In this document: positions 19 through 46,452 of the stretch, piece after piece
Layout: each line of letters begins with the position of its first letter
Position numbering within the stretch: position 1 is the stretch's first letter
DNA from: Rhizophagus irregularis
Taxonomy: Eukaryota > Glomeromycota > Glomeromycetes > Glomerales > Glomeraceae
Direction: 5' to 3'
NCBI RefSeq assembly: GCF_026210795.1
Contig: NC_089450.1
Span: 310,001 to 374,000, forward strand
DNA length: 64,000 nt
The notes under the pieces: model-generated
What the model was told of the DNA's origin: nothing
The model's input: only the letters and a program-made list of their open reading frames with translations
Database searches by the model: none
Position numbers and translations under genes: made by a program

Positions 19-2590
19 ATCTTTTGAAAGATTAATTTAGCAGTGTTTTATTTCAGTAATGTGTGATAGGTATATAAATTCAACATATACATATACCTTC
101 CGAATCGATCTTGGATTGAGGAAGATTTATTTTTTGCGTGTTACATCACACCACTATTAATAAACTTGGCAAAAAGTGTGAGAATTTTCTTCACGGGGTG
201 GGATCACATGATTTTATTTTCACGAAATAGTGCAATTTTATTCAAATAAAATAAATTCATCATTAGAATGGATCATATTATATGTACTACATTAAATGGG
301 TAAAAACAAGAAATTTAACAAGAATTGGGTTAATAATAGAGAAAATTGTTTGAAAAAAGAACAATAGTAGTAATTGTATTTTTTTCATGATTTTATGTGC
401 TATGCAGTAAATACCTCCTTTCAGAAGGAATATGAAAAATAAACAAATCTGAAAAAAAATTATATGTGCACATGTGTGCACATGTGCGCATAAAGCATTT
501 TTTTTTTTGTGCACAATCAAAAAATTTGTCATATTTTTATTAATAATTTTTTAAGGCAAATAAAAATTAAAATGTGCACATGAATTTTATACGATTCAGT
601 TTACTACGAAACTGTAATGCAAGTGTTGATTTTGTTTACTTATGGCTTTTACGACTTTTAATGCTTATATTGTGCTTTACATGGAGCAGTTTTGCTATTT
701 TTAAAAAAGTTTTAATGAATAAAATACCCAATAAGAGCTTATATAACTCCTGACTCATAAAACCAAGTCATCTAGACCATATGTGACGATTGTGACGCAT
801 CAAATATGTAAATTTTAATCGACTTGCCCTTAATTAAATAATAATGGATTTTTAAAAAACGCTTGTTCCTTCAGATGTTTCTTTAAGTTCTCTAATAAAT
901 CAGCTTTTAAATATATATAATCCTCTCAAAAAATATCTTTTGAAAGATTAATTTAGCAGTGTTTTATTTCAGTAATGTGTGATAGGTTTATAAATTCAAC
1001 ATATACATGTACCTTCCGAAATCTTGGATTGAGGAAGATTTATTTTTTGCGTGTTACTATTAATAAACTTGGCAAAAAGTGTGAGAATTTTCTTTACGGG
1101 GTGGGATCACATGATTTTATTTTCACGAAATAGTACAATTTTATTAAACAAAATACAAATAAAATAAATTCATCATTAGAATGGATCATATTATATGTAC
1201 CATTAAATGGGTAAAAACAAGAAATTTAACAAGAATTGGGTTAATAATAGAGAAAATTGTTTGAAAAAAGAACAATAGTACAGTGCGGTACCTCTATAAT
1301 AGGTACTCCTTATATCTTGTGATCTAATGGTCAGAATTTTATAAAATTTTAAAATTAGATAGCTTTTAAAAAGATAAATACATTAAGCAAATAAAAAAAT
1401 TTTCTCAATTTTTTTTTGCTGACATAATACAAAATCACATGACTTAAAATAAATTTGATTGGCTAATGCAATACCTAATGTTAATTAGAATTATGCATAA
1501 TTTTTTATATATAATTTATTATTCATTATAATTATTTAAAGTAATTTGATTAAGTATATTATCAGGAACTTTTCTATGGGATTTATATTTTTTTTAGCAA
1601 GTTTTCCCATGATTCCTTTTTGAGAAATAGATATAATATAATTTGTAATAAATAAAAACTACTAAAATTTTTTTTGAATTTTTTTTCAAAATTTTTTTAA
1701 CAAAGCATGGGTAAGTTTATAAGCTAAAATGATTTATTTGAATAAGCACTATCAAATGATTATTTTTTTTTTATGTTACATAAAAATCACTTATTCTCAA
1801 ATTTTTTCCATCATAATAAATTACCCGAACTTCAAACTTATGTAGCACTAGCAAAATTTATTATTTTTTAATCTAACCCGATAAGTTTAAAAGCTTTTGA
1901 TATGCTTTATTAAAATTATCGGTTAGAATTTTAAAATATTATTTTTTGCTAATGTGACATCTTTTTGAAAATGTCACATTATGACTATAAAATTGGGTTG
2001 GTTATAGAGGTACCGCACTGTAGTAATTGTATTTTTTTCATGATTTTATGTGCTATGCAGTAAATACCCCCTTTCAGAAAAATAAACAAATCTGAAAAAA
2101 AATTATATGTGCACATGTGTGCACATGCGCGCATAAAGCATTTTTTTTTTGTGCACAATCAAAAAATTTGTCATATTTTTATTAATATTTTTTTTAAGGC
2201 ACATAAAAATTAAAATGTGCACATGAATTTTATACACTGTGACAGGTTCAGTTTACTACGAAACTGTAATGCAAGTGTTGACTTTGTTTACTTATGGCTT
2301 TTACGACTTTTAATGCTCATATTGTGCTTTACATGGAGCAGTTTTGCTATTTTTAAAAAAGTTTTAATGAATAAAATACCCAATAAGAGCTTATATAACT
2401 CCTGACTTTTAAAAGAATTATTATCCCTATTAAGTCATCTAGACCATATGTGACGCATCAAATATGTAAAATTTAATCGACTTGCCCTTAATTAAATAAT
2501 AATGGATTTTTAAAAAACGCTTGTTCCTTCAGATGTTTCTTTAAGTTCTCTAATAAATCAGCTTTTAAATATATATAATCCTCTCAAAAA
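19..2590. repeat. Tandem duplication, unit about 915 bp
   Basis: The sequence starting near 19 (ATCTTTTGAAAGATTAATTT) starts again near 933 and runs collinearly to about 2590 once the 740-bp MITE at 1281-2020 is removed. Both units contain the GTGCACATGTG-rich stretch, the CCAAT/TATATAA promoter-like block and the start of the pentapeptide gene (near 844 and 2502). The first unit stops just after the first exon begins; only the second continues into a gene. The open frames across this stretch are not conserved between units. Confidence 0.8.
1281..2020. mobile_element. Tc1/mariner-type MITE, 740 bp, TA target duplication
   Basis: Perfect 19-bp terminal inverted repeats CAGTGCGGTACCTCTATAA lie at 1281-1299 and, inverted, at 2002-2020, with TA on each side (1279-1280 and 2021-2022). 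The tandem-repeat partner near 361-380 reads straight through the target without the insert, so the boundaries are defined by an empty site. TA duplication and a CAGT start are characteristic of the Tc1/mariner/pogo superfamily (family knowledge). I see no transposase, so this is a non-autonomous element. Confidence 0.9.
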
Positions 2591-4728
2591 TAATCCTCTC
2601 AATATAATCCCCTCAAAAATAATTCTCTTAAATATAATCCTCTCGAATTTAATCCTCTCGAATACAACCTAATGAACAAAAATAGAGACAAAAACAAAGC
2701 CCAAGGTTTGTAGAGTATGTATTAGTTTTTCAATCTGATCAAGTCTACTAACGACCAGTATTATTATTTAAAAACGCAGGAGATACGGAGGATGAGATTA
2801 CAGAGATCGTAGCGCAAAAGAATGGTTTGTCTTAGCAAAACATTAGTTTATCCGGTCTATTATGTTAATAAAAAAAAACACTTTCTCTACTTTTTCAATG
2901 AAAAAAAAAATAACTGGCCACTTAAATCTCTACTGTTACATATATACTGTATAATGTATAATAATATAAAATATTGTGAAATCCCCCCGTAAGATGCACT
3001 AAGTTTACTAACGACCAGCACTCTTATTTCAGTTATTAATGTTGAAGAAGAAATTGCTGGTCCGAAAGCTGATCTGAAGTTGAGTCCAGAAAAAGTATTA
3101 TTATACAATGGTTTAGATGATGCAGGAAAAGTTATGTTTTTGGATATACTTAGGAGATTGGAAGAAGAAAAGAAAGAAGGAAGAGAGGAAGGAAGAGAGG
3201 AAGGAAGGAAGGAAGAGCGTAAAAGAGGCGTATGTATATATTTATTATCGTGACTTTACTATGCTTTGTATGCTTTGCTAAAATTATAATAGTTTTTTCG
3301 ACGTTTTTTTTCATCTTTAAAATAGATATTCTACGTAAACTTAGTTATTAGTCTTGAAGGAAGTTACTCAACCATCTTGATAAAAAATATTAACCATAAT
3401 TGCTGCTGCGCTGATCAATGTGCTTAATGCGAAGACACAAGACGCAAATATAATTAAATATGGAACTTTAGTATTAAATTCACTTGTTCATGGAGTTCAA
3501 CTTTTTTGGAGCCGTAAGAGAGAGTTCTAATAAGAACTTAATATATTATGGTTGTACACTCCTGCCCTTATTGCCTTATTTATATTGGTAAGCAATTAGA
3601 AGACGGACGTACCTTGTCAGATTATCGTATCCACAAAGAGTACACACTTCATCTTGTACTTAGACTACGTGGAGGAATGTTTGTAGAAACCAGTGGCCGC
3701 AAAGAATTTGATGCATTGCCAGCACTCACGCACTATATGTTAACACCTGAAGAACGTCTACAAAATGGAATCCATGCCGGGATTACTTGTAATTATTGTG
3801 GTAAAAGTGAATGGAAAGGGACGAGGTTAATATAAAATTTATTTTAATAAGCTTTGAATGTCCTTTTTCCTCATTAATACTTAATTTTTAATTTTTTACA
3901 GATTTAAATGTTCGGAATGTCCTGATTATGACTTGTGCTTTGATTGTATTAAAACGCCCAACTTGCTTCATAATGTGCAACATCATTTTCTGAAAATCTT
4001 GAATCCCTTAGACCCAAAGGAATTTCCAAAAGGTCCCCCTGTTGCCTCTGTTACTATCTCCCCAATACTACCAGACACAAAAGAGAAATTGTTAACTCTT
4101 CTACGTGAAGAAGAGCGTCGGAGGTTATCACCTGAAATACAAAAAAATATTATGAAGTTGGGAATGATCCAACGTGTGGCAAAGACTGGATGGATGTTAC
4201 TGATGAGATGCAGCATGAATTAGTTCGAGAGTTTGGATACTCAGATGAGGCAGTACAATTATTGCGACGTGCACCACAACTTTATCCAGGTAAAAAAGTT
4301 TTCTCATCTTTCTTCCTCAACTTTTTTTTTACAATAGTTGATCTTATGTATTTACCATCGTCTAGATGATCCTGAATTCCGTACAACTCAAGTATATGTT
4401 CGCAACAATATTGCTAATGCAGCGAACTTATTTGAACTTTATTCAAATAATCATAATTTATTATACGTAATTATACTTTAATAGTAACTTACATTTTATA
4501 TTAGGGTATAAAATTTAAACGTACCCCCATGGCGTAAGTCAAAAATGAAGTTTTATACCCTTTTTTCCATAATAAATAAAGTTGTAGAGGAGGCAAAAAT
4601 ACACATTCGGTACTCCAGCCACAATATTTTTAGGAACATTTCTTGTTACTATTCCTCCAACTGTCTCATTAGCGTGGCAGGAGTTGGTGCATTAATTTCT
4701 AATCTTTCAAGAGATTTTTTTTTAGCTG
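2502..4728 (+). pseudogene. Pentapeptide/coiled-coil/membrane repeat gene, copy 1, interrupted
   Basis: First and most diverged copy of the unrecognised gene family seen again near 6.9, 14.0 and 40.9 kb. It has an exon start near 2502, an intron with the family donor GTTTGTAGAG and CTAAC branch point, an exon opening V-I-N-V-E-E-E and leading into L-S-P-E-K-V-L-L-Y-N-G-L-D-D-A-G, and a Glu/Arg-rich coiled coil ending near 3230. The hydrophobic last exon begins near 3330 but is split: family sequence stops near 3572 and resumes near 4605, with a foreign ubiquitin/ZZ segment between. Extra bases in exon 1, an AT-rich insertion in an intron (about 2850-2990) and a one-base loss near 4676 make it non-coding as a whole. 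Confidence 0.7.
3573..4605 (+). pseudogene. Captured ubiquitin-ZZ zinc finger host gene fragment
   Basis: The reading frame enters at the last 30 residues of ubiquitin ([13 protein letters not shown] ... L-R-L-R-G-G), then M-F-V-E-T-S-G-R and a ZZ-type zinc finger with paired cysteines (C-N-Y-C, C-S-E-C, C-F-D-C) and a downstream histidine pair. The ZZ domain is split by an intron at 3826-3901 (GT...ACAG, frame kept). A second intron lies at 4290-4365 and joins L-Y-P to D-D-P-E-F-R-T-T. A one-base frameshift near 4160 separates the Lys/Glu-rich linker from N-D-P-T-C-G-K-D-W. The copy lacks the ubiquitin N-terminus and ends abruptly near 4460. ZZ domains bind peptide tails and ubiquitin fusions are cleaved after Gly-Gly (family knowledge). 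Retained introns mean it was copied as DNA, not from mRNA. Confidence 0.75.
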
Positions 4729-4779
4729 AATTACACATGTACTATGAGTGCCATAATAAGCAAAAAATTAATTAATACC

Positions 4780-6455
4780 CGACTATACTGGGCAGATATT
4801 TTTACAATATTGTAAAATTGTTAAAGCATGTTCACGGTATTCTAAATACATTTTTTATATACAATTATTTTTTAAAAGATAAAATACTTTTACGCCATAC
4901 AATTAGAAAAAAATAATTTTTTTTTGCAATTATTTATTAATAAATATCAATATAATTCAGCTTTTAATTACAAATACATATATATTTATTGCATAAAAAA
5001 TTTTTTTAGACAAATGTAAAGAGTTGATACTGTGTTCCAAATAAATATTTATTAACTACATTGAATCATTCCGAATTGAATGACATTTCATATTTATTCT
5101 TCCAAATTTTCTCACCAAAATTTTACGTCTTTAAATAAATATATAATTTTTTTTTATCAAAATAATGGTCTGAAGTATAAAAAATTCGGTATAACTGTAC
5201 ATTGCATTATAGTTGTGTAATAATCTTTCGTGAATAAAAAATAAAGAAAAATAAAAGAATGCCATACCGTTTAAGATAGTCCGATCCGAATACCTGGGTT
5301 TTAAAAATTGTATAATACTTCCGTTCTGACAGTATTAGAAGGATTAAATATATGAAAATTTAAAATATGTTGATTTTATGAAATTAAATAATTCTACATA
5401 TTACAAATTTGATATATTATTAAGTTGAGTACTTTAAGTCAAAAAGGGTATCTTAAGCAGTGCGGTACTGTAATAAAAATAAATTATGATAATTTTAGTA
5501 CAAAAATATTTCAAGTCGATGAATAATTGAACAGAGTTGATAATTTTTGAACCATTAGAGGGAAAGTAAGTATAACGATAATTTTGACCCCAGAAATTTC
5601 AAATGTAAAGATTTCAGAGGGTTAATTTGAGAATATTGAGTGTATTGAGTGAGTTAAATAGTGAAGAATTGTTTGAAAAAATTGCGTTGCATTCTGATCA
5701 TTATATTGCGGAGGATACTAGGAGGCAGTAGGATAAGATTGAGATAAATCAGAAATAATAACATTGCCAGGTGTATCGGGTGTCGTTCATCGCAGGATAT
5801 CCATTATTGTAACGCGAGGAGTATTTGCATTATGGTAATTAATATCTAAATTTTCTGAGCGAATATCAGTTGTTTACGATTGCAAATCACTATAAATTAC
5901 TATTATCCATTTTTAATAGAGTTTATAAATTATGTCTATTATTTATGAATTAAATATCTTAGTTGCGATGAGATATCGGAAAAATGAAGAAATAGTCACC
6001 TGACTTAACTAAAATCGAAATAAACAATCTCTTACAGGTTCGATGTTTCGGTAATTGGGTTATATAGAATGTGAGAGGGGATATGTTTTTCAGAAATTAT
6101 AGAAAAGCGAAGTATCTAAAAGGAACTCGAGTATCTGTTATATATGACTCGTCCCTTTAACGAACATCCATTACTAAAGGTTGAAATTCATTGAAACATA
6201 ATTAATTTTACTGAATTATTTGATTTATTATAAACACAGTGTATAAAAAAAAAACTATAATTTTTTAACGAAGAATTCGCTGATCATCAAAGTCACTACG
6301 CCACAAAAAAATTAAAAATCGATTCTGGTAAAAAAATTTGAGAGATGACCATTGCTTTCCAAAAAATATATATATATTTTTTTTCTTTCATAAAATGAAA
6401 TATTAAAAAGAAAAATAGTTTTTTCTTTTGAGAAATAATTTACCTAAATTTGATT
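4780..6455. repeat. Non-coding 3' part of long repeat, copy 1
   Basis: Collinear with 8,810-10,127 and 42,890-44,250, including the block ending TCTTTTGAGAAATAATTT. At about 6,455 it jumps to sequence equivalent to the start of copy 2, so copy 1 and copy 2 are head-to-tail. About 230 bp near 5,700-5,930 is absent from the other copies. CAGTGCGGTACTG at 5458 resembles one terminus of the MITE at 1281 but has no partner. No gene seen. Confidence 0.6.
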
Positions 6456-6753
6456 TGTAGTAATTGTATTTTTTCATGATTTTATGTGCTAAACAGTAAA
6501 TACCCCCTTTCGGAAGGAAGATGAAAAACAAACAAAAGTGTAAAAAATTATATGTGCACATGTGCACATAGAGCACTTTTTTTGTGCACAATCAAAAAAT
6601 TTGTCACATGTTTATTAATATTTTTTTAAGAAATTTTGTGCACATTAAATTGTGCACATAAATATTAAAATGTGCACATGAATTTTATACACTGTGACGA
6701 TTTGTTTACTTATGGCTTTTACGGCTTTTAATACTCAAATCGTAGCAGTTTAC

Positions 6754-6772
6754 CCAATAAGAGCCTATATAA
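6754..6772 (+). promoter_or_regulatory. CCAAT and TATATAA promoter-like block, copy 2
   Basis: CCAAT at 6754-6758 and TATATAA at 6766-6772 lie about 85 bp upstream of the ATG at 6856. The same pair at similar spacing precedes the gene in every other copy, which supports a real core promoter. Confidence 0.5.
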
Positions 6773-6855
6773 CTCCCGACTGTGTCAGACCACATGTGAC
6801 GCATCAAATATGTATGACAAGATCATGACTGATATATTGATATATTTAAATAACA

Positions 6856-8068
6856 ATGGATTTTTTTTTAAATAAAAAAAACTCTTGTTCCTTCAGATGT
6901 TTCTTTAAATTCTCTAATAAATCAGCTTCTAATATAATCCTCTCAAAAATAATCCTCTCAAAAATAATTCTCTTAAATATAATCCACTCGAATATAATCC
7001 TAATTCTCTCGAATTTACTACTGAAATTGGTCTTCCAAGTAAAAAAAGTCCTCTCGAATTTAATCCTCTCGAATACAACCTAATGAACGCAAATAGAGGC
7101 AAAAGCAGAGCCCAAGGTTTGTAGAGTATGTATTAGTTTATCAATCTGATCAAGTCTACTAACGACCAGTATTATTATTTTAGAAACCGCTGGAAATACA
7201 GAAGATGAGATTACAGAAATCGGAGCGCAAAAGAATGGTTTGTCTTAGCAAACATTAGTTTATCCGGTCTAACCAAGTTTACTAACGACCAGCACCTTAT
7301 TTCAGTTATTAATATTGATGAAGAAGAAATTGTTCCGAAGTTGAGTCCAGCCCAAGGTTTGTAGAGTATGTATTAGTTTTTCAATCTGATCAAGTCTACT
7401 AACGACCAGTATTATTATTTTAAAAACCACAGGAGGTACAAAAGATGGTTTGTCTTAGCAAACATTAGTTTATCCGGTCTAATCAAGTTTACTAACGACA
7501 GCACTCTTATTTCAGTTATTAATGATAAAGATGATCTGAAATTGAGTCCAGAACAAGGATTATTATACAATAGTTTAGATGACGCAGGAAGAGTTGCATT
7601 ATTGGATATACTTAAGAAAGAAAGAAACGAAGGAAAGGAAGAAGGCAGGGAAGAAGGCAGGGAAGCAGGAAGGGAAGAAGGAATGAGGGTAGAGCGTAGA
7701 AGAGGAGTATGTTTATTTTCTATTTTATTATCGTGACTTTACTATGCTTTACTAAATTATAATAGTTTTTTCGACGTTTTTTTTCATCTTTAAAATAGAG
7801 ATTTTACGTAAACTTAGTTATTGGTTTTTTAACCATAGTTGCTGCTGCACTGATCCAAGACGAAACTATAATTAAATATAAAACTTTATTATTAAATACA
7901 CTTGTTCATGGAGTTCAACTTTTTTGGGCAGGAGTGGAAGCCATAAGAGAGAGTTCTAATAAGAACTTAAAATATTATATTTGTACACTCCTGCCCTTAT
8001 TATCCGGAATATTCGTTGTTACTATTCTTTCAACTACCTCTAATCTTTTAAGAGATTATTTTTTGTAG
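6856..8068 (+). CDS. Unrecognised pentapeptide/coiled-coil/two-TM protein, copy 2
   Basis: I do not recognise the family. Inferred exons are 6856-7116, 7184-7237, 7306-7356, (7424-7447), 7516-7706 and 7799-8068; the introns share GTTTGT donors and CTAACGAC branch points. The product would start M-D-F-F-L-N-K-K and carry N-P-L-K/N-P-L-E repeats, acidic exons, S-P-E-Q-G-L-L-Y-N-S-L-D-D-A-G, a Lys/Glu/Gly-Arg-rich coiled coil, and a hydrophobic tail ending L-L-R-D-Y-F-L. A one-base loss in exon 1 puts the repeats out of frame with the later exons. The acceptor of the 24-nt exon has mutated from TAG to TAA, though skipping that exon keeps the frame. The hydrophobic exon is shorter than in copy 3. 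Confidence 0.5.
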
Positions 8069-11000
8069 CCGCAGGTGATCAAATAAACTTCTCAGACGCC
8101 CCAAAAAAAATTCTGCGTAAATCATGTGACCATCACATATCACATGATTGTGATTAAAGAGTTACGTAATTTACATAAATAATAATTTATTAAACTTTTA
8201 TTAAAGTTTCGCTTTTCCACTTTCAATATGAATATTGTAACTACTAGTAATTTACAAAGATGTAAAAATGTCGAAAAAATTTACCTCTAGAATTTGCAAT
8301 GCTTTCTTTTATTATGTAATAAATTGATTACCAATTGAATTCTTTTTATCGATCGTATTAAAAGTGACTTAGATTTAATTGAAGGTAGAGCTTAGGGTTA
8401 GGTTAGGGTTAGTTGCATAGGGAGTTTTAAAATTTGCAAGTAATCATATTGTAAATATCACGTGTTATATCAATCATGTGATTGCGATGATGATGCGCAA
8501 TTATATAAATTAGCATGTAAATTAGTTAGAAAAAGTGTAAAGAATTAACTTAATTTCCTATTTGCGTCATCAATATAAATTATTTCGTCATTAAATTTTA
8601 TAATATTTATTATTTAATTAGGCTCTTTACAAAAACTAATTGCTTCATTGCAGAAACTTGAAATTTTTTAATGTATCATTAAGCTACTTTAACTATGAAT
8701 CTTAAAAGTAACGTGACGGTCAAATTTTTTTAGTATATCTTCCCAATGATGAAATGACATTTGGATGATATCGATGTGGTCATGTAACGTTAATTTGCAT
8801 GACATTTTAATTATACTGGGCAAATATTTTTACAATATTGTGTACGGTGTTCTAAATACATTTTTTATATACAATTATTTTTACAATTAGAAAAAAATAA
8901 TTCTTTTTGCAATTATTTATTAATATAATTCAGCTTTTAATTACAAATACATATTTATTGCATAAAAAAAATTTTTAGACAAATGTAAAGAGTTGATACT
9001 GTGGTTCCAAATAAATATTTATTCACTACATTGAATCATTCCGAATTTTTTGGTTGTAGAATGACATTTCATACCACCAAAATTTTACGTCTTTAAATAA
9101 ATATATATTTTTTTTAATCAAAATATTATAAAAAATTCAGTATAACTGTACATTGCATTATAGACATAGTTGTGTTTTCGTGAATAAAAAATAAAAGAAT
9201 GCCATACCGGATAGTCCGATCCGGGTATAATACAAAATACTCGGTTTTATAAATTGTATAATACTCGGGGTACATCACTCACGGCGGGCGTACATGACAG
9301 TATTAGAAGGATTTAATATATGAAAATTTTAAATTTGATTTATAATAACCATTAAAATATGCTGATTTTATGAAATTAAATAATCTACATATTACAAATT
9401 TGATATATTATTAGTTCGAGTATTTTTTGGATCCGGGAATATCAAAAGTAAATATTTCAGAATGGTTCGTTTGAGAAGAGGAAGCCATTGGAGAGAAAGT
9501 AGGTATAATGATAATTTTGACCCCAGGAATTTCAAATGTAAAGATTTCAGAGGGGTTAATTTGAAGAATTGTTTTGAAAAAATTACGTTGCATACTGATG
9601 TTTGTTATTATATATCTATTATTTATGAATTAAATATATTAGTTGCGATGAGATATCGGAAAAATGAAGAAATAGTCACCTGACTTAACTGGATCTTACA
9701 TAAACAATCTCTTATAGGTTCGATGTTTCGGTAATTGGGTTATATAGAATGTGAGAGAGGATATGTTTTTCAGAAATTATATAAAAGCGAAGTATCTAAA
9801 AGGAACTCGAGTATCTGTTATATATGATTCGTCTCTTTAACGAACATCCATTACTAAAGGTTGAAATTCATTAAACATAATTAATTTTACTGAATTATTT
9901 GTTTTATTATAAACACAGTGTATAAAATAATTAATTTTTAACGAAAAGAATTCGCTGATCATCAAAGTCACTACGCCATAAAAAATTAAAAATTGATTCT
10001 GGTAAAAAAATTGAAGATATGACCATGCTTTCCAAAAAAAAAAAATATTTTTTTTTCATTCATAAAATGAAAATATTAAAAAGAAAAATAGTTTTTCTTT
10101 TGAGAAATAATTTACCTAAATTTGGTTTTGTATTGATAATTTATTTTCTTTGATAAGATTGATAATGAGAGACCCATACTTCATTTGGGTTGATTTGATA
10201 TCTTTAATTTTTTTTATCTATATAAAAGATCATGTTCCTGAAATGTAAACATTCTCATTATTTTTATATTAATGAAATTGTCATTTAGAACCTGCTAGAA
10301 TCATCAAAGAGATTGATGAGATTTTTTGATAGTTTGCCTTTTTGTTTATGTTGAAAAAAAAAATTTTAGTCATTTTTTTAGTAAAATCAAAAAAAAAATT
10401 TCTTGGCATGTTTCACACGACTTAAAAATTTAAAATTCTTTACAGTAACGACACAAAAATAGTTACTTTGATCCCTATTAATTGTTCCTTTTACAGAATT
10501 TAATTACCCAAATAAGTTGCATTCAATGCGACTTCAATGGTCATTTGTTATTCTTGTGTTCGATTTGGAATTCTATTTAGAAGCCTAAAATAAACTAATG
10601 AAACCTCTTTTCCATACTTCGTTTAAAAACGAAAAAGGAAATCAGAATTTAATTTACACGTGACTTCCTGGCCGGAATTATGCATTAATGCATTATTAAG
10701 TGATAGATGATTAACGCGACACTCGTGATGATCGCATCATGGGTTCAGAACTATATAAATAAAATTATTTTACTGTAAAAAAATCGGTATCTTGCAATGT
10801 TTACGTGAGAGAATGTTTCATGATAATCTATTTTATGAGATAATACTTTTGGGGGAGAACCGGGGAGATCGTATATTGTGTCGCGTGACAAATTTTTTTG
10901 AAATTATTTCCTCCAATTTGGTTTTATATTACTAAAAAGATTATTCTTTTATAATTTTTATATTATAAATTATAATGATTATAAAAGTTTTCTTTATTAT

Positions 11001-11280
11001 ATAAGTAATTTTTATTTTATGCGCGCAAAAAATATTTTAATCGATACATCCCATTTTTCTTTCGAATTCCGCATATGAATAAATTACTAATTTTGGACCA
11101 GCACAAACTTTTTTTTAATAGATTCTTACACGTAAAAAATGTGTGAGTAAAAATATTTTGATCATTTATCAATTTTTAATGAGTCCATTTAAAGTATAAT
11201 TAATGAGTTGATAACAAGGTGTTTTTTTTTTTGTGTAAATTAGATAGATATTTCATCGATAATACTTGTTTCATTTTATT
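8069..11280. repeat. Non-coding body of long repeat, copy 2
   Basis: Collinear with 42,152-45,180, with small indels. It contains a short telomere-like tract, poly-A/T stretches and duplicated blocks shared with copy 1. Open frames here (for example 9462-9683) are not conserved between copies and I see no gene. Confidence 0.7.
8392..8412 (+). repeat. Short interstitial telomere-like tract
   Basis: TTAGGGTTAGGTTAGGGTTA-type sequence, about three and a half units of the common fungal telomere repeat TTAGGG with one shortened unit. The equivalent position in copy 4 (42,475-42,495) has the same tract with one substitution, so it predates the duplication. Confidence 0.6.
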
Positions 11281-11299
11281 ATAAATAGACAAAGAATAA

Positions 11300-11502
11300 T
11301 CTTTCGACCCAAGGGCTCTTTCTCGGTATTGGTTCACAAACTTTCATATTTAATCGCGGAGGGACCTCAGGTGTAATAGATACATCATAATGTATAATAT
11401 TGTTTTCGGCATTGTTTTTACTTCAAATAAGTTTGTTCAAACTTTAATCGGTCTTCCTTCACGGCCAATGCTTGGTCTTCTCACAAACGGTGCAATTTCC
11501 AT
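11300..11502 (-). pseudogene. Argonaute N-terminal fragment, decayed (copy 2)
   Basis: Minus-strand sequence collinear with the better preserved Argonaute fragment at 45,212-45,427. It keeps the region encoding G-R-E-G-R-P-I-K-V and H-Y-D-V-S-I-T-P-E-V-P-P, but a deletion of about 10 bp near 11,340 and other indels break the frame. It cannot encode a product. Confidence 0.6.
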
Positions 11503-12575
11503 GATTGATGAAGAAAAAAAAATTAATTTTTATGAGATTTGGAAAGAAAAATCAATTTTCCTAATTCCTTAACACTTGGACTAAAAACTTGAAGGCGGAA
11601 CTGGTTAAACCTTGGGAACAATAATTTGAAATAACTGCTCGATAGCTCCCGGATATTCGACAGCTGCCAAAACCAAAGACAACTACGGCTGGACCGGGTT
11701 ACGGATTATGGAAAGAATCCCTATATTACAGATTCACAGTATATTAAGAAAATTTATAATTTATGAGGGCTTGCAAAAAAATTCATGAGGGTTTTTAAAA
11801 AACAATTAAGCTTGTTAATCCACAATTTTTTTATGGGGGTACTTTGGAAGGTCTCTTTCTTTCTCTTGTAAGGGTTTCTCTCAATAGTACTTTAAGGAAT
11901 CTTTTATTTTAAGAAAGCGAAACTTAATAAAGTTTTTTTAATATATGAATGATTTACTTTTATTTATATACAATGTATTACTTTTGTTCTTTACTTTAAA
12001 CTTTGATGTGAAATTTGCTAATCTTCAATTTCAGAATGTTCTGACCCTGCTTTATTGAGTGAGTACTGAGTAGCATATTGGGCAATGTAAAATAAAAAAA
12101 AAAGTTGTTTCGTTTTATATTCCAATATCTGCGTAACATATACATGGTATAAGAGCGTGGTACCTGATGGTATAAGAACGATACATTTGCTCTCAAATAT
12201 CGTTTTAAAAGATTTGTACGCGACAGAACCCTACAAATTCACCTTATTAATCTAACAGAAAAAATTTTAATAATGAAACATTTCAATCCAGAACTTACCT
12301 TACTACATGACTATTTCGTTCCCTTTTTATTGATATTAGGGTTGTGTTGCTTGACAAACCAAAATCGATGTCTATAAAAATTTTAAACCAATTTAAAGTA
12401 AATCTCAGGATTTATCACTCATTTCTTCTTTCAATTGGTCTTTTTTTTAACGAGATTTATGAATGGAATTGGATTTGCGTGTATAATTTTTTTGATAAAG
12501 TAGTTTATATGGGAAAATGTAAAAAAAAGTCGAGATAGGAAAATAAGTTATATCAATATCGGATTTTTTGAATAT
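11503..12575. repeat. Right end of long repeat, copy 2
   Basis: Collinear with 45,545-46,452; similarity fades after about 12,575 (near TTTTTTGAATATTGTA). Nothing coding is supported; the frames at 11,996-12,196 and 12,344-12,538 are not kept in the partner copy. Confidence 0.6.
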
Positions 12576-12724
12576 TGTAATCATTAAATTATAAACATTA
12601 TTCTAGGCCGAATTAATCCAAAAGTTATGGGAAATGTTAAATGTAGGATACTTTTAATTTGGTCAAATCTTGATTATTCTATTACTCGGAAAGCTTCGTT
12701 TCTTAATTCAGGGACCACAGGGAC

Positions 12725-13660: not shown

Positions 13661-13901
13661 GGTAAAACGGTTAATAATAGAGAAAATTGTTTTGAAAAAA
13701 GAACAATAGTAGTAATTGTATTTTTTTTTCATGATTTTATGTGCTATGCAGTAAATACCCCCTTTCGGAAGGAAGATGAAAAACAAACAAAAGGTTCAGA
13801 AGCGTACATAAAAATTAAAATGTGCACATGAATTTTACGGCTTTTAATACTCAAATCGTGTTCAGTTTTGCTATTTTAAAAGTTTTTAATGAACAAAATA
13901 C

Positions 13902-13920
13902 CCAATAAGAGCCTATATAA
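13902..13920 (+). promoter_or_regulatory. CCAAT and TATATAA promoter-like block, copy 3
   Basis: CCAAT at 13,902-13,906 and TATATAA at 13,914-13,920, upstream of the ATG at 14,033, in the same arrangement as the other copies. Confidence 0.5.
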
Positions 13921-14032
13921 CTCCCGACTGTGTCAGACCACATGTGACGCATCAAATATGTATGACAATAAAAATTTAATTGACTCGCCCTGACAAGATC
14001 ATGATGCTGATGATATATTTAATTAAATAACA

Positions 14033-15334
14033 ATGGATTTTTTTTTAATAAAAAAACTCTTGTTCCTTCAGATGTTTCTTTAAATTCTCTAATAAATCAG
14101 CTTTTAAATATAATCCTCTCAAAAATAATCCTCTCAAAAATAATCCTCTCAAAAATAATTCTCTTAAATATAATCCACTCGAATATAATCCTAATTCTCT
14201 CGAATTTACTACTGAAATTGATCTTCCAAGTAAAAAAAGTCCTCTCGAATTTAATCCTCTCGAATACAACCTAATGAACGCAAATAGAAGCAAAAGCAGA
14301 GCCCAAGGTTTGTAGAGTATGTATTAGTTTATCAATCTGATCAAGTCTACTAACGACCAGTATTATTATTTTAGAAACCGCTGGAAATACAGAAGATGAG
14401 ATTACAGAAATCGGAGCGCAAAAGAATGGTTTGTCTTAGCAAACATTAGTTTATCCGGTCTAACCAAGTTTACTAACGACCAGCACCTTATTTCAGTTAT
14501 TAATATTGATGAAGAAGAAATTGTTCCGAAGTTGAGTCCAGCCCAAGGTTTGTAGAGTATGTATTAGTTTTTCAATCTGATCAAGTCTACTAACGACCAG
14601 TATTATTATTTTAAAAACCACAGGAGGTACAAAAGATGGTTTGTCTTAGCAAACATTAGTTTATCCGGTCTAATCAAGTTTACTAACGACAGCACTCTTA
14701 TTTCAGTTATTAATGATAAAGATGATCTGAAATTGAGTCCAGAACAAGGATTATTATACAATAGTTTAGATGACGCAGGAAGAGTTGCATTATTGGATAT
14801 ACTTAAGAAAGAAAGAAACGAAGGAAAGGAAGAAGGCAGGGAAGAAGGCAGGGAAGCAGGAAGGGAAGAAGGAATGAGGGTAGAGCGTAGAAGAGGAGTA
14901 TGTTTATTTTCTATTTTATTATCGTGACTTTACTATGCTTTACTAAATTATAATAGTTTTTTCGACGTTTTTTTTCATCTTTAAAATAGAGATTTTACGT
15001 AAACTTGCTTATTTGTTTTTTAACCATAGCTGCTGCTATACTGATCAATGTACTTTATGCAGACACACAAGAAGGAATAATTAAATATGGAACTTTTATA
15101 TCAAATACACTTGTTCATGGAGTTCAATTATTTTGGGCAGGAGTGGAAAGCATAAGAGAGAGTTCTAATAAGAACTTAAAATATTATATATGTACACTCC
15201 TGCCCTTATTATCCGGTGTCCTAGCTGCAATATTTTCAGGAATATTCGCTGTTACTACTCCTCTAGCTACCTCAGTAGCGTGGGCAGGGATTGGAGCAGT
15301 AGTTTCTAATCTTTTAAGAGATATTTTTTTGTAG
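14033..15334 (+). CDS. Unrecognised pentapeptide/coiled-coil/two-TM protein, copy 3 (best preserved C-terminus)
   Basis: Same exon layout as copy 2. From about 14,083 the exon-1 repeat frame is open as F-K-Y-N-P-L-K, N-N-P-L-K (repeated) and N-P-L-E, and it stays in phase with the later exons. The coiled-coil exon ends at 14,897 (donor GTATGT), and the last exon 14,990-15,334 encodes the fullest membrane part: a first segment around F-L-T-I-A-A-A-I-L-I-N-V-L, a hydrophilic loop with H-G-V-Q-L-F-W-A-G-V-E, and a long Gly/Ala-rich hydrophobic stretch before L-L-R-D-I-F-L. Only the first codons after the ATG are out of phase (one A fewer than copies 2 and 4). The topology suggests a membrane-anchored coiled-coil protein; function unknown. 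The copy ends near 15,357. Confidence 0.5.
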
Positions 15335-15357
15335 CCGCAGGTGATCAATAAACTTCC

Positions 15358-17150
15358 AGAAAAATGTCTAAAAGAACACCCGGTTACATCAGGAGTTTAA
15401 AAAGGGTGTAGATTTGCAAAATTACACGTATGTAAAAAATCACGCAAATCCATGACACCTACGTGGGTATACGGGCGTGTAAAATCACAAATATTCTTAA
15501 TAATGAGAATTCCTATATTAATTTAATAAAAAAATTTTTGTATTTTTAAATATAAGGGAATACACAATAAAATTCTTCTTTTCCTTTCTTTTTCTTCTTG
15601 TTCCCTTTATTTCTCTCTCACCTCTCTCCTTTCCTTCATTTGTTATTTCTTTCCTTAATATTTTTATTTACTCGGCATAATTTTTTTATATTTATTTATT
15701 TATTTTTTTTTTGCTTACCTTAAGGAATCGAACTGATTACCTTGAGTTATTTTATTATATATCATATCTCGCAACTTAACCACTATGCTATTTAACTTTT
15801 TTTATAATTTACAGTATTATATTTTATATTTATCTTAAAAATCATACTTTTTGAGTAAGTTACGCAAAATTGCATATTTACATGTTTTTTTATATCATAA
15901 AATGGCGTAACTATCTATTTATATAAATCCACACTACTTTTTTAAACACAAATTTATCAAAATATTTCGAATTGTCAGATTTGATGTACGGATTGCGTTA
16001 AAATCATACGTTTGTACAATTTTTTAAAGATGCGAATATCCGAAACTACTTGTTTACGTAAATTTACACAATTTTTTTTTAGATGGAAATTTGTTGAAAT
16101 ATTTTAGACTGTGATTTTATATATAGAATACTCAAAATTATGTATTTATACAATTTTTCAGAATATAGATTTTTGAAACTATCTGTTTATAAAAAATCTA
16201 TGCAATTATTTTAGACACGAATTATCAAATACTATATTTTAAGTGTAAATTAAACAATATCGCGTATTTACGAGTTTTTTCAAGGTGTAAATTTTCGGGA
16301 TTACCCATATTTGATAAATCTACATTAATATACACATAATTTAATCTCCTGATAGTAGGTTTCTTATCTTAGACCCTCCTTAAATATGATTGGTTTAATC
16401 AGCCACCGAAATCCATTGGACAAGACTTACATTTATCTTAGAAAATTTTTCACAATCGTAACAAACATTACATTTATCTTAGAAAATTTTTTTTTATAAT
16501 ATATACATTAATATACGTGTAACATTTTTATCTATGAAAATTTTCATAAAATTTTTTTATAATACATTATACGCTAATACGCGTGTAACATTTATAGAAA
16601 TTTATCAAGATTTTAAATTAATTTTTTTATTAAAGAAATATTTCACAATAAGATACAAAGTATGAGCATTTTATTGGAATATTTTATGACAAAAAATTAA
16701 ACTAAACCAAATATTAGAAATGTTTATCAAATATTTTACAATTGAGTAAAGAATTATCTATTATGTTATTATTTTTATTCTCTCCTTACAAAAATAACCT
16801 TATATTAAAAAAAAATACCATTATTAAAGTGAAAATACTTCACAAATTTCCATTGAAATTTTGTAAATATGAGTGAGTATTCAAACAATTTTATTTTTCA
16901 GAATACCAACCAAAGCAAAATTGTGCGATTTTCAAATTTGAGGAGTGGTCAATAAAAAAAATTTTGAATTTCAAAATTTGTGTACCATCGTGATCTGACC
17001 AATAAAATTTTAAAATAAAAATTAACGAGTTTTTTGACACGTAAAAAATCTATATTTTGCGTATAAAGGATATAAAGATGCATCAGGAGTTTAAAAAGGC
17101 GTAAATTTGCAAAATTTCACATGTATAAAAAATCACGCTAAACTGCGCCC
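15358..17150. repeat. AT-rich region with degenerate repeated blocks
   Basis: A block starting TCAGGAGTTTAAAAAGG, with TTTGCAAAATT and TAAAAAATCACGC further on, occurs at about 15,388-15,465 and again at about 17,082-17,150. Weaker versions (a TTTACG / AAATTTACACAATT pattern) lie between. No gene seen apart from the tRNA-like block listed separately. Confidence 0.45.
15716..15795 (-). mobile_element. tRNA-like block, possible SINE head or tRNA relic
   Basis: On the minus strand TAGCATAGTGG (15,782-15,792) fits a polymerase III A box, and AGTTCGATTCC about 50 bases on (15,724-15,734) fits a B box. The intervening arms do not fold into a convincing cloverleaf and an A-rich run follows. This is more like a SINE head or dead tRNA than a working tRNA gene. 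Confidence 0.4.
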
Positions 17151-24405: not shown

Positions 24406-24501
24406 AATCGAATTGACGTTAAATTTTTACAAATTGTAGTAAAGTTTTAAACGATTATTTGATTTATTGAAGCGATTAACTTCAAAACTCGTCAATTGAA
24501 A

Positions 24502-26790: not shown

Positions 26791-26856
<66 letters not shown>

Positions 26857-33905: not shown

Positions 33906-34439
33906 TGATATATTTTAATGCGGCAAGTTATACTTTGTCGAAATTTGCAGTAAAATTGAAAATATATTGTTATTATAGCAATACCACTTCGATTAATACA
34001 AAATTGTTACTTTTCAACTTTCGCTAAAATTTACAGTTTCTTTTGATAAGGTTTGTTTGGCATCCGAAAATGATAAAGGGATGATAAAGTGATTATCTTG
34101 TAAATAAAAGTTATTTTAAAATAAAATAAGCTTTTTATTTTAAAAATAAGCTTTTTATTAAAAATAAGCTTTTTATTGTAAAATAAGCTTAAATCATATT
34201 GCAATTTTTAAAAGTATATTAATTAGAAAATTCGCAAATTTATTATATAAAATTGCCAAATTTGCAAAAAAAAAATATTAAATCCTAAAAAATTATTGAA
34301 ATAATCATAGAAGCCAGGATTACATTAATTATACATACAAATTATACAAATTTTGTGTTATTCCAAATTTTATAAAAATCAGCTTTTTTACAAATTTGGA
34401 TTTTGCCAAACTTATTAAACTTATTCAAATACTAAACAA

Positions 34440-40431: not shown

Positions 40432-40821
40432 TAACCAAGCATATGAAATCCTGACAATCGATTAATAGAGAAAATTGGTTTGAAAAAAGAACAATATTAG
40501 TAATTGTATTTTTTCATGATTTTATGTGCTAAACAGTAAATACCCCTTTCGGAAGGAAGATGAAAAACAAACAAAAGTGTAAAAAATTATATGTGCACAT
40601 GTGCACATAGAGCATTTTTTTTGTGCACAATCAAAAAATTTGTCACATGTTTATTAATATTTTTTTAAGAAATTTAAAATTTAAAAATTGTGCACATAAT
40701 GTGCACATGAATTTTATACACTGTCGATTTGTTTACTTATGACTTTTACGGCTTTTAATACTCAAATCGTGTTACATGGAGCAGTTTTGCTATTTTTAAA
40801 AGTTTTTAATGAACAAAATAC

Positions 40822-40840
40822 CCAATAAGAGCCTATATAA
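40822..40840 (+). promoter_or_regulatory. CCAAT and TATATAA promoter-like block, copy 4
   Basis: CCAAT at 40,822-40,826 and TATATAA at 40,834-40,840, upstream of the ATG at 40,924 as in the other copies. Confidence 0.5.
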
Positions 40841-40923
40841 CTCCCGACTGTGTCAGACCACATGTGACGCATCAAATATGTATGACAAGATCATGACTGA
40901 TATATTGATATATTTAAATAACA

Positions 40924-42151
40924 ATGGATTTTTTTTTAAATAAAAAAAACTCTTGTTCCTTCAGATGTTTCTTTAAATTCTCTAATAAATCAGCTTCTAA
41001 TATAATCCTCTCAAAAATAATCCTCTCAAAAATAATTCTCTTAAATATAATCCACTCGAATATAATCCTAATTCTTTCGAATTTACTACTGAAATTGGTC
41101 TTCCAAGTAAAAAAAGTCCTCTCGAATTTAATCCTCTCGAATACAACCTAATGAACGCAAATAGAGGCAAAAGCAGAGCCCAAGGTTTGTAGAGTATGTA
41201 TTAGTTTATCAATCTGATCAAGTCTACTAACGACCAGTATTATTATTTTAGAAACCGCTGGAAATACAGAAGATGAGATTACAGAAATCGGAGCGCAAAA
41301 GAATGGTTTGTCTTAGCAAACATTAGTTTATCCGTCCTAACCAAGTTTACTAACGACCAGCACCTTATTTCAGTTATTAATATTGATGAAGAAGAAATTG
41401 TTCCGAAGTTGAGTCCAGCCCAAGGTTTGTAGAGTATATATTAGTTTTTCAATCTGATCAAGTCTACTAACGACCAGTATTATTATTTTAAAAACCACAG
41501 GAGGTACAAAAGATGGTTTGTCTTAGCAAACATTAGTTTATCCAGTCTAATCAAGTTTACTAACGACAGCACTCTTATTTCAGTTATTAATGATAAAGAT
41601 GATCTGAAATTGAGTCCAGAACAAGGATTATTATACAATAGTTTAGATGACGCAGGAAGAGTTGCATTATTGGATATACTTAAGAAAGGAAGGGAAGAAG
41701 CAAAGAAAGAAAGAAACGAAGGAAAGGAAGAAGGCAGGGAAGCAGGAAGGGAAGAAGGAATGAGGGTAGAGCGTAGAAGAGGAGTATGTTTATTTTCTAT
41801 TTTATTATGACTTTACTATGCTTTACTAAATTATAATAGTTTTTTCAACGTTTTTTTTCATCTTTAAAATAGAGATTTTACGTAAACTTAGTTATTGGTT
41901 TTTTAACCATAGTTGCTGCTGCACTGATCCAAGACGAAACTATAATTAAATATGAAACTTTATTATTAAATACACTTGTTCATGAAGTTCAACTTTTTTG
42001 GGCAGGAGTGGAAGCCATAAGAGAGAGTTCTAATAAGAACTTAAAATATTATATTTGTACACTCCTGCACTTATTATCCGGAATATTCGTTGTTACTATT
42101 CCTTCAACTACCTCTAATCTTTTAAGAGATTTTTTTTGTAGCCGCAGGTGA
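40924..42151 (+). CDS. Unrecognised pentapeptide/coiled-coil/two-TM protein, copy 4
   Basis: Same exon structure as copy 2 and the same start M-D-F-F-L-N-K-K. The coiled-coil exon carries an extra Gly/Arg/Glu/Ala-Lys segment compared with copies 2 and 3 and ends at 41,783; the last exon starts at 41,873. One T is missing near the end, so the frame runs past the family stop through C-S-R-R to the TGA at 42,149-42,151. Exon 1 has the same one-base loss as copy 2, and the small exon's acceptor is likewise mutated to TAA. Function unknown. Confidence 0.45.
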
Positions 42152-45100
42152 TCAAATAAACTTCTCAGACGCCCCAAAAAAAATTCTGCGTAAATCATGT
42201 GACCATCACATATCACATGATTGTGATTAAAGAGTTACGTAATTTACATAAATAATAATTTATTAAACTTTTATTAAAGTTTCGCTTTTCCACTTTCAAT
42301 ATGAATATTGTAACTACTAGTAATTTACAAAGATGTAAAAATGTCGAAAAAATTTACCTCTAGAATTTGCAATGCTTTCTTTTATTATGTAATAAATTGA
42401 TTACCAATTGAATTCTTTTTATCGATCGTATTAAAAGTGACTTGGATTTAATTGTGTTGCGTTGAAGGTAGAACTTAGGATTAGGTTAGGGTTAGTTGCA
42501 TAGGGAGTTTTAAAATTTGCAAGCAATCATATTGTAAATATCACGTGTTATATCAATCATGTGATTGCGATGATGATGCGCAATTAGTAATATAGATTAG
42601 CATGTAAATTTGTTAGAAAAAGTGTAAAGAATTAACTTAATTTCTTATTTGCGTCATCATTATAAATTATTTCGTCATTAAATTTTATAATATTTATTAT
42701 TTTAATTAGGCTCTTTACAAATACCTGATATCTTTTTGTTTGCTTCATTGCAGAAACTTGAAATTTTTTAAGGTATCATTAAGCTACTTTAACTATGAAT
42801 CTTAAAAAGTAACGTGACGGTCAAATTTTTTTAGTATATCTTCCCAATTTATGAAATGACATTTGGATGATATGTAACGTTAATTTAATTAATTATACTG
42901 GGCAGATATTTTTACAATATTGTATATGGTGTTTTATATACAATTATTTTTACAATTAGAAAAAAATAATTCTTTTTGCAATTATTTATTAATATAATTC
43001 AGCTTTTAATTACAAATACATATTTATTGCATAAAAAAATTTTTTTAGACAAATGTAAAGAGTTGATACTGTGGTTCCAAATTAATATTTATTAATTACA
43101 TTGAATCATTCCATATTTATTCTTCCAAATTTTCTCACCAAAATTTTACGTCTTTAAATAAATATATATAATTTGTTTTTTTTAAAATGGTCTGAAGTTC
43201 AGTATAACTGTACATTGCATTATAGTTGTGTAATAATCTTTCGTGAATAAAAAATAAAGAAAAATAAAAGAATGCCATACCGCACCGCTTAAGATAGTCA
43301 TGTCCGGGTATAATACGGTTTAAAAATCGTATAATACCGAGGTACATCACTCACGGCGGGCATCCATCTTCCATTCTGACAGTATTAGAAGGATTTAATA
43401 TATGAAAATTTTAAATTTGATTTATAATAACCATTAAAATATGCTGATTTTATGAGATTAAATAAATCTACATATTACAAATTTGATATATTATTAAGTC
43501 GAGTATTTTTTGGAACCGGGAATATCAAAAGTAAATATTTCAGAATGGTTCGTTTGAGAAGAGGAAGCCATTGAAGGGAAAGTAGGTATAACGATAATTT
43601 TGACCCCAGGAATTTCCAATGTAAAAATTTCAGAGGGGTTAATTTGAGAATAATTAGTCATATTGAGTGAGTTAAATAGTGAAGAATTGTTTTGAAAAAA
43701 TTGCGTTGCATTCTGATGTTTGTTATTATATCTATTATTTATGAATTAAATATATTAGTTGCGATGAGATATCGGAAAAATGAAGAAATAGTCACCTGAC
43801 TTAACTGGATCTTACAAAAATCGAAATAAACAATCTCTTATAGGTTCGATGTTTCGGTAATTGGGTTATATAGAATGTGAGAGAGGATATGTTTTTCAGA
43901 AATTATAGAAAAGCGAAGTATCTAAAAGGAACTCGAGTATCTGTTATATATGACTCGTCTCTTTAACGAACGTCCATTACTAAAGGTTGAAATTCATTGA
44001 AACATAATTAATTTTACTGAATTATTTGATTTATTATAAACACTGTGTATAAAATAATTAATTTTTAACGAAAAGAATTCGCTGATCATCAAAGTCACTA
44101 CGCCATAAAAAATTAAAAATTGATTCTGATAAAAAAAATTGAAGATATGACCATTGCTTTTCAAAAAAAAAAATATTTTTTTTTCTTTCATAAAATGAAA
44201 ATATTAAAAAGAAAAATAGTTTTTCTTTTGAGAAATAATTTGGTTTTGTATTGATTATTTATTTTCTTTGATAAGATTGATAATGAGAGACCCATACTTC
44301 ATTTGGGTTGATTTGATATCTTTAATTTTTTTTTATCTATATAAAAAGATCATGTCAAATGATCAATTCTGAAACGCCAATATTCCTGAAATGTAAACAT
44401 TCTCATTATTTTTATATTAATAAAATTGTCATTTAGAACCTGCCAGAATCATCAAATGATGAGATTGATGAGATTTTTTGATAGTTTGCTTTTTTGTTTA
44501 TGTTGAAAAAAAAAAATTTAGTCATTTTTTTTAGTAAAATCAAAAAAAAAAATTTCTTGGCATGTTTCACACGACTTAAAAATTTAAAATTCTTTACAAT
44601 AACGACACAAAAATAGTTACCTTGATCCCTATTAATTGTTCCTTTTACAGAATTTAATTACCCAAATAAGTTGCATTCAATGCGACTTCAATGGTCATTT
44701 GTTATTCTTGTGTTCGATTTGGAATTCTATTTAGAAGCCTAGAATAAACTAATGGAACCTCTTTACCATACTTCGTTTAAAAACGAAAAAGGAAATCAGA
44801 ATTTAATTTACACGTGACTTCCTGGCCGGAATTATACATTAATGCATTATGATTAACGCGACGGTGATGATGATCGCATCATGGGTTCATATAATTTTTC
44901 TTTATTATATAAGTCCAATATACATGTATTTAATATTATTTTTATTTTATGCGCGCAAAAAATATATTTTAATTGATACATCCCCATTTTTCTTTCTTTC
45001 ATTCCGCATATAAATAAATTACTAATTTTAGACTAGACAAACTTTTTTTCATAGATTCTTACACATGTGAAAAAATGTGAGAGTAAAAATATTTTGATCA

Positions 45101-45180
45101 TTTATCAATTTTAATGAGTCCATTTAAAGTATAATTAACAAAGTGTTTTTTTTTTTTATAGATATTTCATCGATAAGACT
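42152..45180. repeat. Non-coding body of long repeat, copy 4
   Basis: Counterpart of 8,069-11,280. Contains the telomere-like tract at 42,475-42,495. No conserved open frame. Confidence 0.6.
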
Positions 45181-45184
45181 TGTT

Positions 45185-45544
45185 TCATTTTATTATAAAT
45201 AGACAAAGAATAATCTTTCGACCCAAGGGCTCTTCTCGGTATTGGTTCACAAAACTTTCAAATATTTTCATATTTAATCGCGGAGGGACCTCAGGTGTAA
45301 TAGATACATCATAATGTATAATATTATTTGTTGGCATTGTAATTACTTCAAATAAGTTTGTTCGAACTTTAATCGGTCTTCCTTCACGGCCAACGCTTGG
45401 TCTTCTCACAAACGGTGTAATTTCCATGATTGATGAAGAAAAAAAAAAATTTTTATGAGATTTGGAAAGAAAAATCAATTTTTCTAATTCCTTAACACTT
45501 GGACTAAAAACTTGAAGGCGGAACTTGTTGAACCTTGGGAACAA
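45185..45544 (-). pseudogene. Argonaute N-terminal domain fragment inside the long repeat
   Basis: From the in-frame ATG at 45,427 the minus strand reads M-E-I-T-P-F-V-R-R-P, G-R-E-G-R-P-I-K-V-R-T-N-L-F, H-Y-D-V-S-I-T-P-E-V-P-P and I-F-E-S-F-V-N-Q-Y. This is the conserved N domain entry of Argonaute proteins, small-RNA-guided silencing factors. The fragment stops near 45,212, well before the linker and PAZ domains, and no PAZ, MID or PIWI sequence occurs nearby. The frame upstream of the ATG (to 45,544) is not Argonaute-like. It therefore looks like a captured first exon. The partner in copy 2 is frame-broken. Confidence 0.7.
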
Positions 45545-46452
45545 TAATTCGAAATAACTGGTAAACTACCGCTCGATTAACTCCCGGATATTCGACAAGC
45601 TGCCAAAACCAATGACAACTACGGCTGGACCCGGGTTACGGATTATGGAAAGACTCCCTACATCACAAATTCACAGTATATTAAGAAACAATTATAATTT
45701 ATGAGGGCTTGTAAAAAAAATTCATGAGGGCTTTTAAAAAACAATAAAGCTTTTTAATCCACTCTCAAATCTTTTATTTTAAGAAAGCGAAACTTAATAA
45801 AGATTTTTTAATATATGAATGATTTATTATTTATAAAAAATAATATATACAATGTATTACTTTGTTCTTTGCTTTAAACTTTGATGTAATCTACAATAGT
45901 CGACTTGAACCGTTCAACAGCGAGCTTTTCTGACCCTGCTTTATTGAGTGAGTACTGAGTAGTATATTGGGCAATGTAAAATAAAAAAAAAATTGTTGTT
46001 TCGTTTTATATTCCAATATTTACGTAACATATACATCGTGGTACTTGATGGTATAAGAACGATACATTTGCTCTCAAATATCGGTAGAAACTTTAAAAGA
46101 TTTGTACACGACAGAACCCTATAAATTTACCTTATTAATCTAACAGAAAAAATTCTAATAACGAAACAAAAATCAAAATTTCAATCCAGAACTTACCTTA
46201 CTACATGACTATTTCGTTCCCTTTTTATTGATATAAGGTAAGTTGTGTTGTTTGACAAAACCAAAATCGATGTCTATAAAAATTTTAAACCAATTAAAAG
46301 CAAATCTCATGATCTCAGAGTTATCACTCATTTCTTCTTTCAATTGGTCGAGATTTATGAATGGAATTGGATTTGCGTGTATAATTTTTTTGATAAAGTA
46401 GTTTATAGAGATAGGAAAATAAGTGATATCAATATCGAATTTTTTGAATGTT

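Follow-up and report, generated by a model that had tools for sequence, protein, structure and literature searches.

A mosaic insert with an intron-bearing ubiquitin-ZZ gene fragment in a local array of Rhizophagus irregularis, probably a product of double-strand-break repair

In yeast, breaks can be closed with templated insertions which originate from distant sites by copy-paste and are sometimes composed of several fragments (PMC11724301). That report gives two or more fragments for 5-7% of the events in named mutants and two fragments for about 12% of the events after 16 days in stationary phase (PMC11724301). Mosaic filler DNA, 1-131 bp long and originating close to the break, has been described for the tandemly duplicated p2/p1 locus of maize (PMC2686159), and in wheat gene-bearing filler formed via synthesis-dependent strand annealing accompanies transposon insertion (PMC3445842). 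For R. irregularis, the element orders listed in a further report include Helitrons, and MITEs are defined there as a class (PMC11075540); the term 'captur' does not occur in the main text of this paper. Among the open-access papers listed for the topic, we found none on gene-fragment filler in arbuscular mycorrhizal fungi.

The stretch of DNA analysed here, in the following called the window, comprises 64,000 nucleotides (C22:310001-374000), and the genome searched amounts to 146.7 Mb in 32 contigs. Positions without a contig name are those of the window. Self-comparison revealed four units of a direct array inside the window, all on the forward strand and with approximate ends: copy 1 (367..6441), copy 2 (6456..12579), copy 3 (13669..15360) and copy 4 (40463..46455). 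Across 4.5 kb, the identity between copies 2 and 4 is about 91%. Copy 1 shows 69-75% identity to the other copies along most of its length and 91-92% in its last ~510 bp (5929-6441). The hydrophobic exon of the unit, which lies in a 114-aa stop-to-stop frame in copy 3, was found at only four places in the genome, all of them inside the window (C22:313316-352152), when the copy 3 exon was used as query at DNA level (7 rows, 4/4 candidates scored) and at protein level (4 rows, 5/5 candidates scored). With positions 6430-8060 of copy 2 as query, 22 rows were obtained (18/18 scored). The long matches were confined to the array, and on other contigs the 13 rows span no more than 168 bases, all within the first 277 bases of the query. 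DNA and protein searches of the genome thus did not place the gene-bearing core of the unit at many unlinked sites but gave the local array alone. As its long matches lie only in the array, the core appears, as far as these searches show, to be a local duplication rather than a mobile family.

Further repeats were noticed in and between the array copies. Copy 1 contains near its start, inside a tandem duplication with an offset of 916 bp, a ~740-bp insertion (1281-2020) with the inverted ends CAGTGCGGTACCTCTATAA...TTATAGAGGTACCGCACTG, which looks like a non-autonomous DNA transposon. Two related open-frame blocks, 24463-27740 and 34419-37695, are about 68% identical in the self-comparison. The second one carries a Transposase_21 (tnp2) domain, indicating a DNA transposon between array copies 3 and 4, which we take to be CACTA-like. 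Between 18748 and 19382, short repeats of a AAAAACGTTTCGGCGTTTTT-type unit form an array in which direct and inverted orientations alternate.

In copy 1, the left part of the hydrophobic exon (3326..3572, forward strand) breaks off after CCCTTATT, and the exon resumes with ATTCGG at about 4605 (4605..4723, forward strand). The 1,032 bp in between (3573-4604) are the insert dealt with in this study. A reading made earlier from the letters of the window alone (sequence-only reading) had described an exon cut cleanly and resumed about 1 kb later, and this description was confirmed. Copies 2-4 do not contain the insert. They are unbroken at the insertion point, where they read TTATTATCCGG; the exon sequence of the empty site is CCTGCCCTTATTATCCGG in copies 2 and 3 and CCTGCACTTATTATCCGG in copy 4, and copy 1 has CCTGCCCTTATT, then the insert, then ATTCGG. 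On the left side copy 1 is 71-73% identical to copies 2-4 over 3001-3572, and on the right side 82% identical to copy 3 over 4622-4723 (self-comparison). On the right flank BLAST detects similarity from 4622 onwards, and the bases 4605-4621 were aligned to copy 3 by eye, with 10 of 17 bases identical and every mismatch being a transition. Judged against copies 2-4, no target bases are missing or duplicated in copy 1. The triplet ATT stands at the junction in both flanks, at the end of the left one and at the start of the right one. To interpret it as a 3-bp target-site duplication would be the less economical reading, because both triplets are present in the unbroken copies and the ancestor would have to be shorter than all three of them. 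About 24 bp which copy 3 has immediately to the right of the insertion site are absent from copies 2 and 4, indicating that this neighbourhood was altered more than once. A scan for exact matches around the junctions (about 30-75 bp) gave a direct repeat of at most 6 bp, located away from the junctions, and an inverted repeat of at most 8 bp, consisting of A/T only.

Most of the insert (846 of 1,032 bp) is derived from a gene. This piece A (3573..4418, forward strand) is a fragment of a polyubiquitin-ZZ-deiodinase-like gene in sense orientation, with Pfam matches to ubiquitin and ZZ. It is truncated at both ends, starting inside the last ubiquitin domain and stopping inside an exon, and comprises the tail of this domain, the ZZ region and part of the linker. 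The sequence-only reading had taken the insert for part of a ubiquitin fusion gene with both introns kept; this holds for 3573-4418, whereas the other about 186 bp are unrelated to the gene. Both retained introns (GT...AG; 3826..3901 and 4290..4365, forward strand) could be aligned to the same introns of a related gene on contig C11, in agreement with the earlier view that the capture took place at DNA level and not by retroposition.

A genome search with the insert yielded 40 rows, the window itself included, as the best 40 of 86 candidates. These comprise one row on C11, one short ubiquitin-type row on C5, two rows for the low-copy part and at least 30 rows for the MITE part of the insert described below. 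The C11 row (C11:2708926-2709775, 95% identity to piece A, E = 0) exceeds chance similarity by far and is the closest relative outside the window among these best 40 of 86 candidates. At least five further gene relatives with 72-77% identity to piece A, again among the best 40 of 86, are located on C21, C26, C18 and C25 (two). The ZZ-region exon of the C11 gene, used as protein query, retrieved the same loci plus one weak row on C3 (9 rows, 18/18 scored). The C11 gene (C11:2707587-2710249) encodes six ubiquitin domains, a ZZ zinc finger and a T4 / iodothyronine-deiodinase-like domain and is uninterrupted across the region matching piece A. Near its 3' end, outside this region, the deiodinase-like frame departs from all five relatives, so that the gene may be damaged, or misassembled, there. 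We found no relevant paper on a ubiquitin-ZZ-deiodinase fusion in the open-access literature.

In the exons after 3660, piece A and the C11 gene differ at 17 positions. Of these, 15 fall on third codon positions, an outcome with a probability of 4.5e-6 if the rates were equal. Within the initial 88 bp of piece A this applies to 3 of 11 differences, and the third-position share is not the same in the two parts (Fisher P = 0.003). A cluster of three differences, at 3582-3585, lies near the left junction. The pattern of the first 88 bp and this cluster may be due to relaxed constraint or to error-prone synthesis. The codon positions are most simply explained if the two sequences diverged mainly during a time when both were still coding and if the capture came later. 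Because the differences are mostly at third positions, piece A probably stems from a functional relative of the C11 gene which is not seen in the assembly. The C11 gene itself, which persists in the genome at 95% identity, is probably not the direct donor. The donor search proposed with the sequence-only reading, including a comparison of the introns, provided a close relative with both introns aligned but probably not the source itself.

The remainder of the insert, about 186-187 bp, is unrelated to the gene and consists of a low-copy stretch followed by the truncated start of a MITE, giving the insert a mosaic make-up. The low-copy, non-coding stretch (piece B, 4418..4501, forward strand) is clearly matched up to 4491 and shows a weaker similarity up to about 4501. 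Elsewhere in the genome piece B has two matches, C30:2454437 (87%) and C11:1399462 (82%; 3/3 candidates scored). These two relatives resemble each other far past B on both sides, which marks piece B as an internal cut-out, and its left cut falls within the longer stretch common to both.

Piece C (4502..4604, forward strand) represents the 5' terminal ~103 bp of a MITE, here called X, and is cut off inside the element. X was matched by at least 30 rows among the best 40 of 86 candidates. All 19 of these loci that were inspected continue into X beyond the point where the window copy stops, two of them irregularly (L014 past a gap and L016 past an inserted stretch). The full length of X is ~285 bp. 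Both ends were recognised in 7 of 8 copies tested, 264-286 bp apart, and 5 of the 7 two-ended copies have, as judged by eye, a flanking A+T-rich direct repeat of about 8 bp. Variable starts of X had suggested a retroelement 3' end with 5' truncation, an interpretation that was dropped since the flanks show 4502 to be the 5' start of the element. This outer end points into the insert and the inner part of X is missing; X was therefore rejected as carrier of pieces A and B. DNA of the type of piece B appears to reach the start of the MITE (weak similarity after 4491), and pieces B and C may thus come from a single locus.

At the left join, between exon and piece A, there is no overlap at all. 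At the A/B join a T is compatible with A as well as with one of the two relatives of B, and at the right join, between piece C and the exon, AT (4605-4606) fits both sides, so that the overlaps across the joins are 0-2 bp. In the genome search no second A-B junction (3/3 candidates scored) and no second B-C junction (13 rows, 13/13 scored) was detected outside the window, although a missing match is no proof of absence. We consider a mosaic filler (templated) insertion, resulting from double-strand-break repair, the likely origin of the insert. This reading is based on the presence of three sequence classes in one clean insertion, on the arbitrary ends of the pieces and the retained introns, on an empty site without duplication or deletion, on the position of the host exon in a local four-copy array and on the lack of second A-B and B-C junctions. 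The insert has two features expected of filler DNA: it resembles sequences elsewhere in the genome (piece A a gene on C11, piece B two low-copy loci, piece C the MITE X), and it shows 0-2 bp of homology at the joins and neither a clear target-site duplication nor transposon ends. A double-strand break would have occurred in the hydrophobic exon of copy 1 at CCCTTATT^ATTCGG. End joining would then have closed it by copying or ligating in at least two unrelated stretches, the first being 846 bp of the ubiquitin-ZZ-deiodinase-like gene and the second about 187 bp of non-coding DNA ending inside a MITE. We infer the break itself, the copying rather than a ligation of loose fragments, and a single event for all pieces.

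Compared with the known systems, the kind of event is ordinary, and the insert is unusual mainly in its length and in that two captures occurred within one array. As in the templated insertions described in the yeast study (PMC11724301), DNA from elsewhere, there sometimes in two or more fragments, would have been joined at a break. Unlike the yeast events (PMC11724301), the insert is old, is seen only in an assembly, and its exact donors were not found. With the maize p2/p1 filler (PMC2686159) it shares the mosaic composition and the location in a tandemly duplicated gene locus. The maize filler is 1-131 bp long and from near the break (PMC2686159), whereas our insert of ~1 kb, long by that standard, combines at least two unrelated sources. 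In wheat gene fragments patch breaks, too, but there the filler is coupled to transposon insertion (PMC3445842). The MITE could accordingly have triggered the break in our case. Besides the length of the insert, further points speak against break-repair filler. The closest relatives reach only 95% (A) and 82-87% (B), which leaves no present-day donor from which copying could be demonstrated; such a donor may be hidden in missing sequence. Another captured gene piece of the array, discussed below, could hint at something more systematic.

Alternatively it might be that A, B and the MITE already adjoined at a locus that was lost later, e.g. a decayed ubiquitin-ZZ paralogue, and were captured as one piece, or that the pieces arrived separately over time. 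The B-type DNA which seems to extend to the MITE start (weak after 4491), as if the MITE had inserted there, would fit a single source, as would the exact donor of piece A not being seen in the assembly. However, no locus of the assembly besides the window joins A to B or B to C, piece A stops inside an exon and piece B contains only part of a longer shared stretch, which makes this explanation unlikely, though still worth keeping in mind. The reverse process, insertion of the repeat into a resident ubiquitin-ZZ gene, is the case by which the sequence-only reading would have been overturned. Not a single point in its favour was found; the insert is bordered on either side by array sequence, in the same order as in the unbroken copies, and the related C11 gene is uninterrupted over the match. 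We regard its probability as negligible.

Transposon capture deserves more attention, since the sequence-only reading had ascribed the fragment to a Helitron-like or Mutator-like transduplication. In this case, the gene fragment would have reached copy 1 inside such an element, whose ends would have decayed or been lost. Helitron and Pack-MULE cargo keeps introns, and the insert resembles such transduplications in being an intron-bearing gene fragment moved as DNA, but the defining ends, the target-site duplication and multi-copy cargo were not found for it. Helitrons are defined by a 5' TC, a 3' hairpin with CTRR and insertion between A and T, Mutator-like elements and Pack-MULEs by long terminal inverted repeats and a target-site duplication of ~9 bp. 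The insert begins with GCCTTATT, ends with ...AATACAC (or ...ACACAT) and lies between T and A; its ends show neither a TC start nor a CTRR terminus, and neither a long terminal inverted repeat nor a clear target-site duplication, the best exact matches being the inverted 8 bp of A/T and the direct 6 bp off the junction mentioned above. No further copies of such a cargo element were revealed by the genome searches for the A-B and B-C junctions, again without proof of absence. A MITE fragment at the right end of the insert and the Helitrons reported for R. irregularis (PMC11075540) would be in favour of transposon capture. Yet the right end of the insert lies inside a truncated MITE with its outer end directed inward, and the cargo is not flanked by the element. 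The transposon as carrier was rejected because no ends, no clear duplication and no second copy were found, and we consider it improbable. Even less probable is a retrotransposed unspliced precursor RNA with template jumping between RNAs. Chimeric retrocopies do join sequences without long homology, as is the case for piece A and its neighbour, but retrocopies are marked by removed introns, a poly(A) tract and a target-site duplication. The insert has both introns of piece A, no poly(A) tract at its 3' end, no clear target-site duplication and no recognisable retroelement end.

The filler insertion, which we prefer, most likely left a pseudogene fragment without function in copy 1. Between the hydrophobic exon and the ubiquitin part of piece A the reading frame is not maintained, and from 3326 to the insert stop codons occur in each of the three frames (three-frame translation). 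In addition, the alignment with the C11 gene shows a 1-bp deletion in piece A at 4147/4148. For these three reasons a working chimeric gene was rejected and a working chimeric protein appears unlikely. An ATG at 3548 is in frame with the ubiquitin part but was given no weight.

The downstream part of the array unit, about 43820-46015 in copy 4, corresponds to a dispersed element, here called E. Elsewhere in the genome E has at least two long relatives, on C26 and C11, besides shorter, weaker pieces (among the best 40 of 116 and the best 40 of 67 candidates). There is no inverted repeat between its two ends. Inside E we detected a 260-bp piece consisting of an Argonaute 5' exon and leader, located at 45223..45482 on the reverse strand in copy 4 and at 11309-11559 in copy 2. 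It is 94% (copy 4) and 89% (copy 2) identical to C17:4287479-4287742, contains the start of the ArgoN domain and is absent at this place from the two other E elements compared (C26 and C11). With one Argonaute fragment common to copies 2 and 4 inside the dispersed E, the array contains two separate captures. The Argonaute capture looks independent of the ubiquitin-ZZ event and seems to predate the split of copies 2 and 4.

This piece is the main point favouring a region that gathers gene pieces. The suggestion of the sequence-only reading that the repeat family collects them is weakened by the core, which was found only as a local four-copy array and lacks the insert in copies 2-4; the dispersed downstream part with its Argonaute fragment in copies 2 and 4 speaks in its favour. 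Different inserts in other repeat copies, which that reading had proposed to look for, exist in the form of the Argonaute piece, while the site of the ubiquitin-ZZ insertion is empty in these copies. The Argonaute piece also underlies a broader interpretation, namely that gene pieces are taken up recurrently by end joining at this array, with break repair and not transposons supplying intron-bearing pieces to young duplicates. We regard this as quite doubtful. If true, the two clean captures, ubiquitin-ZZ and Argonaute, which resemble genes of other chromosomes, would represent an ongoing supply by break repair to young duplicated genes. An intron-bearing gene fragment inside a repeat need not be Helitron or Mutator cargo, and if such events are common here, chimeric gene sequence would also arise from end joining and escape the annotation of transposons.

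At the Argonaute locus on C17, an additional 66-bp match with 76% identity to E (44536-44601) was observed; E and Argonaute loci could share more than the 260-bp piece. The part of E at about 44570-44800 has many matches of 67-79% on C1, C6, C13 and other contigs (among the best 40 of 67 candidates), and the matches over 44536-44800 may mark a further shared gene or element piece.
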